From Acidobacteriaceae bacterium (GTDB taxonomy: Bacteria > Acidobacteriota > Terriglobia > Terriglobales > Acidobacteriaceae), in assembly GCA_003135475.1 (NCBI GenBank), contig PLBW01000099.1, forward strand, positions 1 to 57,953: 57,953 nucleotides of DNA. Reading direction: 5' to 3'. This document shows, piece after piece, positions 1 to 44,211 of this stretch (the stretch's first letter is position 1; every line of letters begins with the position of its first letter). Both the position numbers and the translations under genes were made by a program. A model generated the notes under the pieces. That model ran no database searches, was not told where the DNA came from, and was given only the letters and a program-made list of their open reading frames with translations.

Positions 1-440
1 GGTTTGGTGACGTAATCGTAGGCCCCCAGCTTCATCGCCTGCACCGCCGATTCAACCGTGGCAAAGCCAGTCATGACAATCACCAGGTTATCGGGACGGC
101 GCTGCTTGATCTCGCGCAAAACCTCCAGACCGCTGTTGCCCGGCAGACGAAGATCGAGCAGCACGACATCCGTACTGCTGGTTTCGAGGACCTGATAAAC
201 GTGTTCCGGGGTGTCCGCCACCCGGCTGTTAAACCCCAGCGAGCGGGCGACTTCCCGGCAAGACTCCCGCATGGAGCGCTCATCGTCGACGATCAACAGG
301 TTCAGTCCATTGGTCTTGCAAATCGGTTCGCTAACTGCCACTGTCTCAACGGCATGCACGTGCGACATCCCTTCTCCGGCGAGCTCGCCCCCAAGTGGCG
401 GCGCGGAATTGATTTGGGCTTTCGTACTCATTACCATCAT
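1..440 (-). CDS. NtrC-type response regulator, receiver domain (3' end outside window)
   Basis: The reverse strand reads as a receiver domain. It has the acidic pair in LLIVDDE, the phosphoacceptor aspartate in VVLLDLRLPG, the MTGF segment with the conserved Thr, and the Lys in YDYVTKP, where the window ends. Receiver domains take a phosphate from a histidine kinase and change the activity of an attached output domain; here the output lies beyond base 1. The MTGFATVESAVQAMKLGAYDYVTKP pattern is typical of receivers fused to sigma-54 AAA+ activators, so that output is inferred. The ATG at 440-438 overlaps the TGA of the upstream H-box gene (ATGA), so translation is probably coupled. In-frame ATGs at 437 and 431 are alternatives. 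Confidence 0.85.
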   Translation of the reverse strand, partial: MMVMSTKAQINSAPPLGGELAGEGMSHVHAVETVAVSEPICKTNGLNLLIVDDERSMRESCREVARSLGFNSRVADTPEHVYQVLETSSTDVVLLDLRLPGNSGLEVLREIKQRRPDNLVIVMTGFATVESAVQAMKLGAYDYVTK

Positions 441-1036
441 CCCTTTTTGGGAAACGTACTAGTACAACCGTCACATGGTGATGTGAGTTCAACTTCCGGT
501 ATGGAGAAAAGACCAGGAGCCAGGCGGGAATTCGTCCGGGGCGGCAGATTCTCCGCACTCCCGGAGTCAACCCGTGGCTCCTGGGCCGTCACCGTATCGA
601 GCAACCTCAACCCGCGGTCCTGCACGCATCGCCTCGGTTCGTTCGCCGGGTCCGTTCCATCTGTCCCCAGCCGGCGTAACAGGCACTTCATCAATTCACT
701 GCCACGCTGCGCGTTGCGCTCGATTTCCCGCAGCGGACGTTTCAATCGGCTGTAGGGAGGCAATTTCCATCCCAGGACCTGTGCATTCATGAGCACGGCG
801 GTGGTCGTGTTCGCCAGCTCATGCACCAGAGCGGCGCAGCTGTCGTTGAAGGCCCGCGAGGAGCACGAATTCTCCTGATCGCGCTCCTCGCGTCCTTGCC
901 CGGCGGAGGAAATCTGGCTGCTTTCGTCATCGCAGGGGACCGAAAGGCGGTCGAGTTGGTTCGCCAAGAATTCCGTTTGCCTTGCCCTGCCGCTCGGGTT
1001 GTGGCTGGCCCTGTTCATGATCCAGATTCTCTGCAT
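437..1036 (-). CDS. Orphan H-box (HisKA-like) protein without ATPase domain
   Basis: A 199-residue protein. Its centre (LVHELANTTTAVLMNAQVL, then a second helix ending NAQRGSELMKCLL) resembles the two-helix dimerisation/phosphoacceptor region of histidine kinases, with the H-box His in VHEL. No N, G1 or G2 box follows; the C-terminal 80 residues are polar and look disordered. It could be a phosphotransfer or docking partner for the receiver protein encoded immediately downstream with an ATGA overlap. The start may be ATG 1036 or ATG 1018; neither has a good ribosome site. The family assignment rests on the H-box pattern and the position next to a response regulator. Confidence 0.6.
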   Translation of the reverse strand: MQRIWIMNRASHNPSGRARQTEFLANQLDRLSVPCDDESSQISSAGQGREERDQENSCSSRAFNDSCAALVHELANTTTAVLMNAQVLGWKLPPYSRLKRPLREIERNAQRGSELMKCLLRRLGTDGTDPANEPRRCVQDRGLRLLDTVTAQEPRVDSGSAENLPPRTNSRLAPGLFSIPEVELTSPCDGCTSTFPKKG

Positions 1037-1276
1037 TCCCTTGCAAACGTATTTGTATAAAGCACGGCTGCTGCCAAAATTCCAATCGCGCTTAAGTGTT
1101 GATTCTTTTGGGAATTTTCCGATCCCTGCACAGCCGGAACCCCCGTCGCCATTGCTCTAGTTCCAGAATGAAACTCGGTCCCGGCTGGATACGCGTCCAA
1201 GTACTTCTCAGATCAGGGTTTCGATGGATTCCTGTTCGGGGAAGGAAGATGCGCCGGAAGGTCAAATTGGGAAGAG

Positions 1277-1436
1277 CAATTAGCCGTTAGCACTTGGCAC
1301 CTAGCTTTGGCCGCAGTCGGTCCGACTCGCAAGCGCGAAATACGGCGTTGCCTGATGCGATACCCGGCCCACTCTAAGTGCCAGATGTTGGCTGCTCGTT
1401 GCTAATTGCTAAATGCTAAATGCTAATTGCTGGTTG
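1277..1436. repeat. Opposed heptanucleotide-period arrays upstream of dinB
   Basis: Two arrays with exact 7-base phasing flank about 70 bp. The left array, 1277-1304, has four units read as CAATTAG, CCGTTAG, CACTTGG, CACCTAG. The right array, 1374-1436, has nine units: CTAAGTG, CCAGATG, TTGGCTG, CTCGTTG, CTAATTG, CTAAATG, CTAAATG, CTAATTG, CTGGTTG. The left array is the right-hand motif on the opposite strand, so the pair could fold into an imperfect hairpin. The rest of the 1037-1452 gap shows no convincing gene. The right array contains an ATG at 1420 that extends the dinB frame misleadingly. Confidence 0.8.
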
Positions 1437-1452
1437 TAAAATCGCGCACAGC

Positions 1453-2688
1453 ATGGCCCCGGTACAGCGCACCATCTTTCACGTCGACATGGACGCCTTC
1501 TTCGTCTCGGTCGAAGAGTTGTTCGACCCCTCGCTGAAGGGCAGGGCGGTGGTGGTTGGCGGTCAGCGCCACGAGCGCGGCGTGGTGTCGGCCGCCTCCT
1601 ACGAGGCGCGCAAGTTCGGCGTCCATTCGGCCATGCCGCTGCGCACCGCCGCGAAACTGTGTCCTCATGCCATCTTCGTGGACGGACATCCCGAGCGCTA
1701 TCGCGATTATTCCGCCAAGGTTTGCCAGGTGCTGGGCCGCTTCTCTCCCAAGCTGGAGATGGTTTCCATCGACGAGGCCTACGTGGACATGACCGGTACC
1801 GGGCGTCTGCACGGTTCGCCGATGCGCGCCGCCCATGCGCTGCACGGCGCGATGAAAGCGGAGACGCAACTGAATTGCTCCATCGGAATTGGCAGCTCGC
1901 GGCTGCTGGCCAAGATCTGCTCCGACCAGGCCAAGCCCAATGGCGTGCTGTGGATTGTGCCGGGCGGGGAAGCGCAATTCCTGGCGCCGTTGGATGTGCG
2001 CAAGATTCCGGGCGTTGGCAAGGTCATGGAGAAGCGGCTGCTCCAACAGGGCATCCAGAAGATTGGCGATCTCGCCCGGCATGAGGAACGCTGGCTGGAG
2101 GCGAACTTTGGCGCGCTGGGCGTGGCGCTGGCCGGCAAGGCCCGCGGCTTGGATGCCGGCGCCTGGTTCGACAGCGATATTGGCGAGGACGACGGGCCCC
2201 GCTCCATCAGCCACGAGCACACCTACTCCGTCGATACCAACGACGCGCAAGCCTTGGAAGCGACCCTGGCGCGGCTGTCGGAGATGGTGTGCCGCCGTTT
2301 GCGCGAACAGAAGCTGCACGCCCGCACTCTGCAATTGAAGCTGCGCTATTCCGATTTCCGCACGCTCACGCGGGCCCACACTCTGGAGCAGCCGAGCTCG
2401 GTGGATTCGGAGGTGCTGGCCACCGTCCGTGAACTTTTCCGGACAAACTGGAATGGCGGCGGGGTCCGGCTGCTCGGAGTCTGCGCGTCGCATTTTGCAG
2501 CCGAGAGTGAGCAGCTCAGCCTGCAAGGCAGGAGCACTCATGAAAAGTGGAACCAGGCGCTCTCCGCCGCCGACCGGCTGCGCGAGAAGTTCGGAGAGCA
2601 TGCCGTCTCCATGGCGACCGGCATGAAGGCGCGCTTCCGCGAACGCACGCACGAGAACCCGGCCGGGTTACCGGGGAAAAAGAAGTGA
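1453..2688 (+). CDS. dinB: DNA polymerase IV (Y-family translesion polymerase)
   Basis: About 411 residues. The catalytic carboxylates of Y-family polymerases are visible in FHVDMDAFFVSVEEL near the N-terminus and in SIDEAYVDMT. The palm/thumb signature GIGSSRLLAKICSDQAKPNG and the helix-hairpin-helix part (IPGVGKVMEKRL) follow, then the little-finger domain. It performs low-fidelity synthesis past damaged bases in the cytoplasm. I start it at ATG 1453 (MAPVQRTIFHVDMD), because the upstream ATG at 1420 lies inside a heptamer repeat array and would add a non-conserved leader. No LexA-type operator is obvious. The hydrogenase-protease gene follows closely in the same direction. Confidence 0.95.
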   Translation: MAPVQRTIFHVDMDAFFVSVEELFDPSLKGRAVVVGGQRHERGVVSAASYEARKFGVHSAMPLRTAAKLCPHAIFVDGHPERYRDYSAKVCQVLGRFSPKLEMVSIDEAYVDMTGTGRLHGSPMRAAHALHGAMKAETQLNCSIGIGSSRLLAKICSDQAKPNGVLWIVPGGEAQFLAPLDVRKIPGVGKVMEKRLLQQGIQKIGDLARHEERWLEANFGALGVALAGKARGLDAGAWFDSDIGEDDGPRSISHEHTYSVDTNDAQALEATLARLSEMVCRRLREQKLHARTLQLKLRYSDFRTLTRAHTLEQPSSVDSEVLATVRELFRTNWNGGGVRLLGVCASHFAAESEQLSLQGRSTHEKWNQALSAADRLREKFGEHAVSMATGMKARFRERTHENPAGLPGKKK

Positions 2689-11797: not shown

Positions 11798-11818
11798 CTA
11801 GTTGCTAATTGCTAGTTG

Positions 11819-11825
<7 letters not shown>
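11798..11825. repeat. Heptanucleotide-period array between convergent genes
   Basis: Four units, CTAGTTG, CTAATTG, CTAGTTG, CTAACTG, fill the gap between pepA and the leftward hydrolase. The fourth unit (from 11819) supplies the TAG stop of the hydrolase. Same family as the arrays near dinB and at 44119. Confidence 0.75.
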
Positions 11826-44113: not shown

Positions 44114-44118
44114 ACAAG

Positions 44119-44211
44119 GGGATAGGGACTAGGGGCTAGAGGCTAGTGGTGAGTAAACCCTGATGTTCGCTAGCCCCTAATCCCTGACCCCTAGCCCCTA
44201 GCCCCTGACTA
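44119..44211. repeat. Opposed heptanucleotide-period arrays between GT2 and EamA genes
   Basis: The left array, 44119-44153, has units GGGATAG, GGACTAG, GGGCTAG, AGGCTAG, TGGTGAG. The right array, 44170-44211, has units CTAGCCC, CTAATCC, CTGACCC, CTAGCCC, CTAGCCC, CTGACTA. The right-hand motif is the reverse complement of the left, so the 93 bases can fold into a hairpin. The right array runs into the presumed start of the transporter gene. Confidence 0.8.

Follow-up and report, generated by a model that had tools for sequence, protein, structure and literature searches.

Opposed heptad arrays upstream of dinB as one copy of a dispersed intergenic element in Acidobacteriaceae

The two opposed arrays of 7-base units upstream of dinB in the window (the whole analysed stretch of 57,953 nt) are one copy of a dispersed element, which is intergenic, occurs in many copies per genome and consists of tandem 7-base units degenerate at fixed positions. 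Its standard order is (CNNTTAG)n, then a spacer, then (CTAANNG)n. Besides this architecture, the element has a fixed polarity and a heptad family shared by both arms; the family changes between species, one spacer has been inverted, and one array differs in length by three units between closely related alleles. Our tentative reading, and the one we place first, is an intergenic foldback repeat, in which opposed heptad arrays at the edges of a gap enclose a private spacer and may act as an imperfect inverted repeat at the level of DNA.

The element at the dinB locus

The first base of the window is also the first of a 67-kb contig, in a 3.9-Mb assembly that is 82% complete. Its named relatives by DNA similarity are Terriglobia MAGs, with identities of up to about 80%, which suggests an acidobacterium of that class. 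The features discussed here are the following.

1277..1304, minus strand: left arm, four heptads, reading CTAGGTG CCAAGTG CTAACGG CTAATTG on the minus strand
1305..1394, no strand: spacer, of which 1340-1387 runs in the opposite direction in the orthologous alleles L189 (from genome G002) and L197
1374..1394, plus strand: degenerate units in 7-base phase, CTAAGTG CCAGATG TTGGCTG, only CTAAGTG fitting the motif
1395..1436, plus strand: right arm, CTCGTTG CTAATTG CTAAATG CTAAATG CTAATTG CTGGTTG
1420..1422, plus strand: accidental ATG made by the array
1437..1442, plus strand: TAAAAT, -10-like, a putative promoter box
1453..2688, plus strand: dinB, Y-family DNA polymerase IV (Pfam IMS domains PF00817, PF11798, PF11799)
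11798..11825, plus strand: second CTARNNG array, single, adjoining a gene end; its G006 counterpart is shorter and has partly decayed
44117..44150, minus strand: left arm of a second opposed pair, CTANCC-type heptads
44170..44209, plus strand: right arm of that pair (CTAGCCC CTAATCC CTGACCC ...); GTGGATA-type heptads take its place in G006

An earlier note on this DNA had described four units on the left and nine on the right, all carrying one motif. The opposed arrangement in 7-base phase stands, on the minus strand at 1277-1304 and on the plus strand within 1374-1436, but only about six of the nine right-hand units (1395-1436) are good ones. Likewise, the motif holds for part of the units: CTARNNG is matched exactly by three of the four left heptads (minus strand) and by five of the nine on the right, where the second to fourth units (CCAGATG, TTGGCTG, CTCGTTG) fit poorly. 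When related alleles are compared, the stretch 1374-1394 appears partly spacer-like, and Tandem Repeats Finder places its call at 1399-1431 (92% matches). A search of 1277-1436 against Rfam gave no match. The hairpin that had been suggested gains support as a possibility, with 164 nt at the element folding as RNA to -61 kcal/mol (z -3.1) and the arms paired.

The note had also taken the ATG at 1420 for a false start created by the array, and we agree. This codon is not conserved as a start; its frame reaches a stop in the closest relative, and the codon is missing in the others. The conserved start is the ATG at 1453, which together with TAAAATCGCG is found in all array-bearing relatives and in G003, with a similar form in G004 and G005. 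For four relatives that do not carry this element, homology at the DNA level begins at 1437, the first base past the array; the array therefore adjoins, rather than interrupts, the apparent -10 box and the dinB start. The dinB relatives keep TAAAAT itself whether or not they have the array, and it may act as a -10 promoter box. The dinB copy is atypical in that it sits in a divergent gap, upstream of a start. Between a frame at 3-368 and dinB, the minus strand holds an open frame (window 437-1036) that has no Pfam match and whose DNA aligns in three relatives.

Abundance, polarity and position at gene borders

In the window's own 3.9-Mb assembly (G000), CTAANNGCTAANNG gave 242 matches against 13 for the reversed pattern, and three consecutive units gave 139 against none; since these matches overlap, arrays are fewer than matches. 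A genome scan, which the earlier note had proposed as the check, thus finds the runs far above chance level. Three-unit runs occur in each of the eight other genomes of the genus as well, with array copy number varying more than 10-fold among same-genus genomes. Outside the window's genome the reversed pattern, GNNAATC, is an unclean null, because other acidobacterial genomes have it as an abundant heptad family of its own, and it was dropped from this use. Its abundance in these further genomes of the phylum indicates that different lineages use different heptads. Of 396 genomes sampled from the phylum, 35 had the CTAANNG heptads; most of these belong to the same taxonomic family as the window's genome, the rest to others.

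Taking all fetched blocks together, 164 of 737 intergenic regions were strongly 7-periodic as against none of 653 coding stretches, although many of the blocks had been selected for holding arrays and the statistics describe blocks, not whole genomes. The only other high periods in these blocks were 14 and 21. Where blocks had been picked regardless of arrays, 25 of 276 intergenic regions were 7-periodic, and no other period occurred more than once per genome.

The polarity of the arrays is nearly invariant. Neighbouring arrays were oriented '-+' in 16 cases and '+-' in one, counted over 350 kb of mostly array-bearing blocks. Arrays with a CTRR or CGAA core numbered 171 in intergenic and two in coding sequence. 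The 3′ end was aimed into the nearest gene in 149 of the 171 intergenic arrays (71 of 78 at starts, 78 of 93 at stops), and 127 lay within 20 nt of that gene; gene borders here come from a simple in-house gene finder, with approximate start positions. In the unselected blocks, 27 of 32 arrays pointed into the nearest gene.

Other repeats occupy similar positions. At L031:9445-9512, L215:6203-6491 and L225:10651-10904, opposed CCACGGAGGCACGGAGGACACGGAG / CTCCGTG repeats stand at the edges of a gap; these lack 7-base periodicity but face each other at gene borders in the same way. Copies of TCATCCTGAGCGCAGCGAAGGACCCC, another dispersed repeat, are opposed at both edges of one gap (L031:11144-11274).

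A scan of public genomes extended the polarity to other phyla: among the matches listed, opposed pairs were '-+' in at least 20 cases and '+-' in at least three, and many of the pairs from other phyla adjoin gene borders. Carriers of the same polarity among the matches listed include a Rhodothermia MAG, Chitinophaga hostae, Cnuella takakiae, Bacteroidales and Bacteroidia, together with Ruminococcus, Clostridiales, Phycisphaera, deltaproteobacterial, Roizmanbacteria and Holophagae MAGs. The opposite polarity, CTAANNG followed by CNNTTAG, was seen in two cyanobacteria, Microseira wollei (L073:7922-7988) and Iningainema tapete (L074:2051-2113). In Chitinophaga hostae (L091:834-934), the arms are mirrored almost unit by unit around a terminator-like hairpin, making the gap nearly one palindrome. 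A mirrored order of units was not seen in the genus of the window (p = 0.91), while the matches listed from the mixed public-genome set showed it weakly (p = 0.01); simple unit-by-unit mirror copying of the arms was therefore set aside as unsupported.

Arm families, spacers and the alleles at dinB

Several heptad families replace one another at the same sites, namely CTAANNG, CTGANNG, CGAANNG, CTANCC and CTYGAAA. One example is L046:17493, where both arms are of the CTAANNG family in G000, of CTGANNG in G002 and G008, and of CGAANNG in G001 and G003. In 45 of 56 gaps the two arms belonged to one family, against a mean of 17.4 and a maximum of 28 after shuffling, and where orthologous left arms differed in family, the right arm differed too in 17 of 19 comparisons; these counts include orthologous sites, and many of the comparisons are not independent. 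The correlation of arm flavour was r = 0.74. Beside these non-independent counts, the complementarity of facing gap edges also holds within single genomes, with 22 such gaps in G000 as against 2.9 by random re-pairing, and likewise in other genomes.

Spacers range from about 20 to >400 nt and are homologous between orthologous sites only, with none shared across loci. Orthologs of the same arm family often share their spacer, whereas those of different families mostly do not. A change of family therefore resembles replacement of the whole insert.

Alignable dinB upstream regions came from G006, G008, G002 and a second allele in the window's own assembly (L175/L197). The window, G006 and G008 have the spacer in one orientation; G002 and the second allele carry it the other way round, between outer flanks that remain collinear. 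Taken alone, the spacer scored 54 in inverted and 14 in direct orientation, with 27 as the top score of 2000 shuffles. No other spacer enclosed by heptad arms was found to be clearly inverted. The G002 allele and the second allele are 98% identical, but their right arrays differ by three units, five CTAAGAG as against one CTAGGAG plus seven CTAAGAG, which lends indirect support to the slipped-strand change that the earlier note had envisaged.

The second allele, L197 (G000:C191:16593-18534), corresponds to window 438-2321. Its upstream region is 98% identical to that of species G002 and about 84-92% identical to the window, from which we conclude that the window's MAG mixes two species or strains. 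Another dispersed repeat, about 105 nt long (L050:1383-1666), has copies throughout the genomes of the genus; at this site its orientation in G006 and G003 is opposite to that in G000.

Origin of the element and its known counterparts

To our knowledge, heptameric repeats have for years been known to be over-represented in bacteria, and polymerase slippage is the only cause that has been offered. Slippage alone does not suffice for the element described here, given arms at two gene borders, a fixed polarity, joint arm families, a flipped spacer and a polarity that recurs in several phyla. We favour a foldback repeat that works at the level of DNA because the arms hold no excess of G-U mismatches, because array length changes in a slippage-like manner, and because the arms share a family and one spacer has flipped. 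In such a repeat, the arrays would lengthen and shorten via replication slippage; the arms may correct each other or be replaced jointly, via template switching or inverted-repeat recombination, and the same exchange might occasionally flip the spacer. Elements of this kind would survive only outside coding sequence. The usual arrival of a new spacer with a new family speaks against conversion of the arms only and looks more like exchange of the whole insert. As to function, the element most likely has no role beyond that of tolerated intergenic DNA with local side effects, and its copy at dinB supplies the DNA that directly precedes the conserved -10-like box. Neither the fixed absolute polarity nor the position of the arms next to genes follows from slippage and arm correction, which is why we keep other readings open.

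One of these would make the arrays a cross-phylum class of intergenic foldbacks, universally ordered as CNNTTAG arm, spacer and CTAANNG arm, with both arms aimed into the flanking genes; the arms would coevolve, be exchanged as a unit by a hitherto undescribed process, and the class would shape intergenic gaps in many bacteria. We regard this as possible but on the unlikely side.

Less likely again is a functional RNA hairpin of REP/BIME type, whose arms would pair in mRNA and insulate, stabilise or end transcripts. The stable fold of the window element agrees with it, and so does the preference of the arrays for gaps whose flanking genes run co-directionally or converge: of the divergent gaps in G000, 4 of 49 were 7-periodic as compared with 54 of 216 others (p = 0.012), and complementary pairs numbered none in divergent and 19 in other gaps (p = 0.03), other genomes going in the same direction in both respects. 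This depletion was, however, not significant in the smaller set of unselected blocks, and the dinB copy itself lies in a divergent gap upstream of a start. On the sense strand of co-directional gaps, arm mismatches were G-U in 91 and A-C in 81 cases (p = 0.49), so that selection for an RNA stem leaves no visible trace. Exchanging arms within a family did not weaken their pairing significantly relative to the cognate arms (p = 0.10).

We are also doubtful of a mobile, MITE-like foldback element, in which the arrays would serve as terminal inverted repeats, an enzyme in trans would insert arm, spacer and arm together, and the polarity would mark the ends of the element. It could account for the polarity seen across phyla among the matches listed, for the joint change of arms and spacer at a site, and for some orthologous gaps that are short and element-free. 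On the other hand, loci have no spacer in common, for which reason MITE copies with a common body were rejected, and when orthologous gaps with and without the element were compared by eye, no recurrent target-site duplication was recognised. Y1/RAYT transposases do not track the arrays either: Y1_Tnp matches are lacking in G008 (50 array matches) and in array-bearing G034, while G005, with few arrays, has four. A REPIN/RAYT system was rejected on these array-bearing genomes with no Y1_Tnp match.

An improbable alternative is that the arrays are putative binding sites for a chromosome-organising or boundary protein, with a CTRR core in each 7-bp unit and three units spanning 21 bp, or two helical turns. 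Such a protein would go well with an invariant core plus two variable positions, an even pitch and an oriented position at gene borders, yet unrelated-looking families swap at one site, which would be odd for one protein, and copy number is too variable among genomes of the genus to sit easily with it. Finally, a phase-variation switch of dinB, through slippage as the earlier note had envisaged or through spacer inversion, is very improbable. Array length and spacer orientation do differ between alleles, but the element is a general intergenic feature without a particular link to dinB, similar arrays stand at very many unrelated genes, the frame from 1453 is untouched with its conserved box and start outside the array (and conserved in array-less species too), and the inversion separates species-level alleles with no mixture seen within one population.

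Two further candidates were discarded. Arrays of CTAANNG contain stops in all frames and might have been back-up stop-codon cassettes, but CGAANNG arrays at these sites are free of stops, and stop codons are therefore not the common property. Edge composition, with purines enriched on the 5′ side and pyrimidines on the 3′ side, fails to account for the polarity because the CTANCC family has the opposite composition.

Among known repeats, the STRR sequences of heterocystous cyanobacteria are tandem degenerate heptads of variable copy number that can form hairpin arms, among them those in the hairpin of the tRNA-Leu intron; their sequences and setting differ from those of the element here. Eukaryotic foldback transposons likewise have inverted arms of short tandem repeats around unrelated middles, a likeness of shape only, as neither a transposase nor an insertion event came to light here. 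REP, REPIN and BIME elements are similarly extragenic and palindromic, with inverted pairs and a variable middle. REPs, however, are palindromes of 20-40 bp (PMC3733652, in its available part) and are tied to RAYT transposases, whereas the arms here are arrays of a non-palindromic heptad, with no palindromic unit of that kind and no tracking by Y1 transposases.

The closest counterparts are the paired heptamer arrays of Xanthomonas and Nostoc, GGGAATC and GGGGA(C/T)T. As far as the accessible text of Rehm et al. 2015 (PMC4692102) goes, those of the Xanthomonas type number about 180 per genome, are 89-93% intergenic with only 7-8% between divergent genes, form 70-75 opposed pairs per genome and differ in length at the same genes in related species. 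They thus share with the element here degenerate heptads, intergenic and gene-adjacent position, scarcity in divergent gaps, opposed pairs and length differences, but have a different, G-rich and quadruplex-forming heptad (PMC4692102, same text). The quadruplex-capable unit GGGANTN is absent here; with units of CTAANNG, CTGANNG, CGAANNG and others, we consider the element a variant rather than a member of the GGGAATC family.

TAACTGA direct repeats are described from Beggiatoaceae, some Cyanobacteria and Bacteroidetes in the accessible part of MacGregor 2015 (PMC4679880). They too are intergenic with interspersed related 7-mers, often just before start codons, have stops in all three frames and are patchy across phyla; unlike the element here, they have a nearly invariant unit in one orientation upstream of genes, with a single inverted case in the genome (PMC4679880, same part). 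The earlier note knew of no published name for the repeat class. Paired heptamer arrays had in fact been published for Xanthomonas and Nostoc (PMC4692102) and heptamer direct repeats for Beggiatoaceae (PMC4679880), although for the acidobacterial family our literature search, to which most subscription papers were closed, found no paper. The accessible text of PMC4692102 reports no gene polarity at two borders, joint change of arm family or spacer inversion, and neither there nor in that of PMC4679880 do concerted arm families, two-border polarity, spacer inversion or a cross-phylum CTAANNG polarity appear. What is known, then, is the paired heptamer array of Xanthomonas; what seems new are the regularities of polarity, concerted arms and spacer inversion.

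The sites collected here, some with closely related alleles, form a concrete set on which the origin of heptameric repeats may be tested, and start codons or repeat switches called from such arrays are likely to be false. As a side observation, three-unit runs of GNNAATC reach up to 136 matches in a genome (G141, G201, G234, G279, G310, G344 and others), and this heptad resembles the GGGAATC of Xanthomonas.
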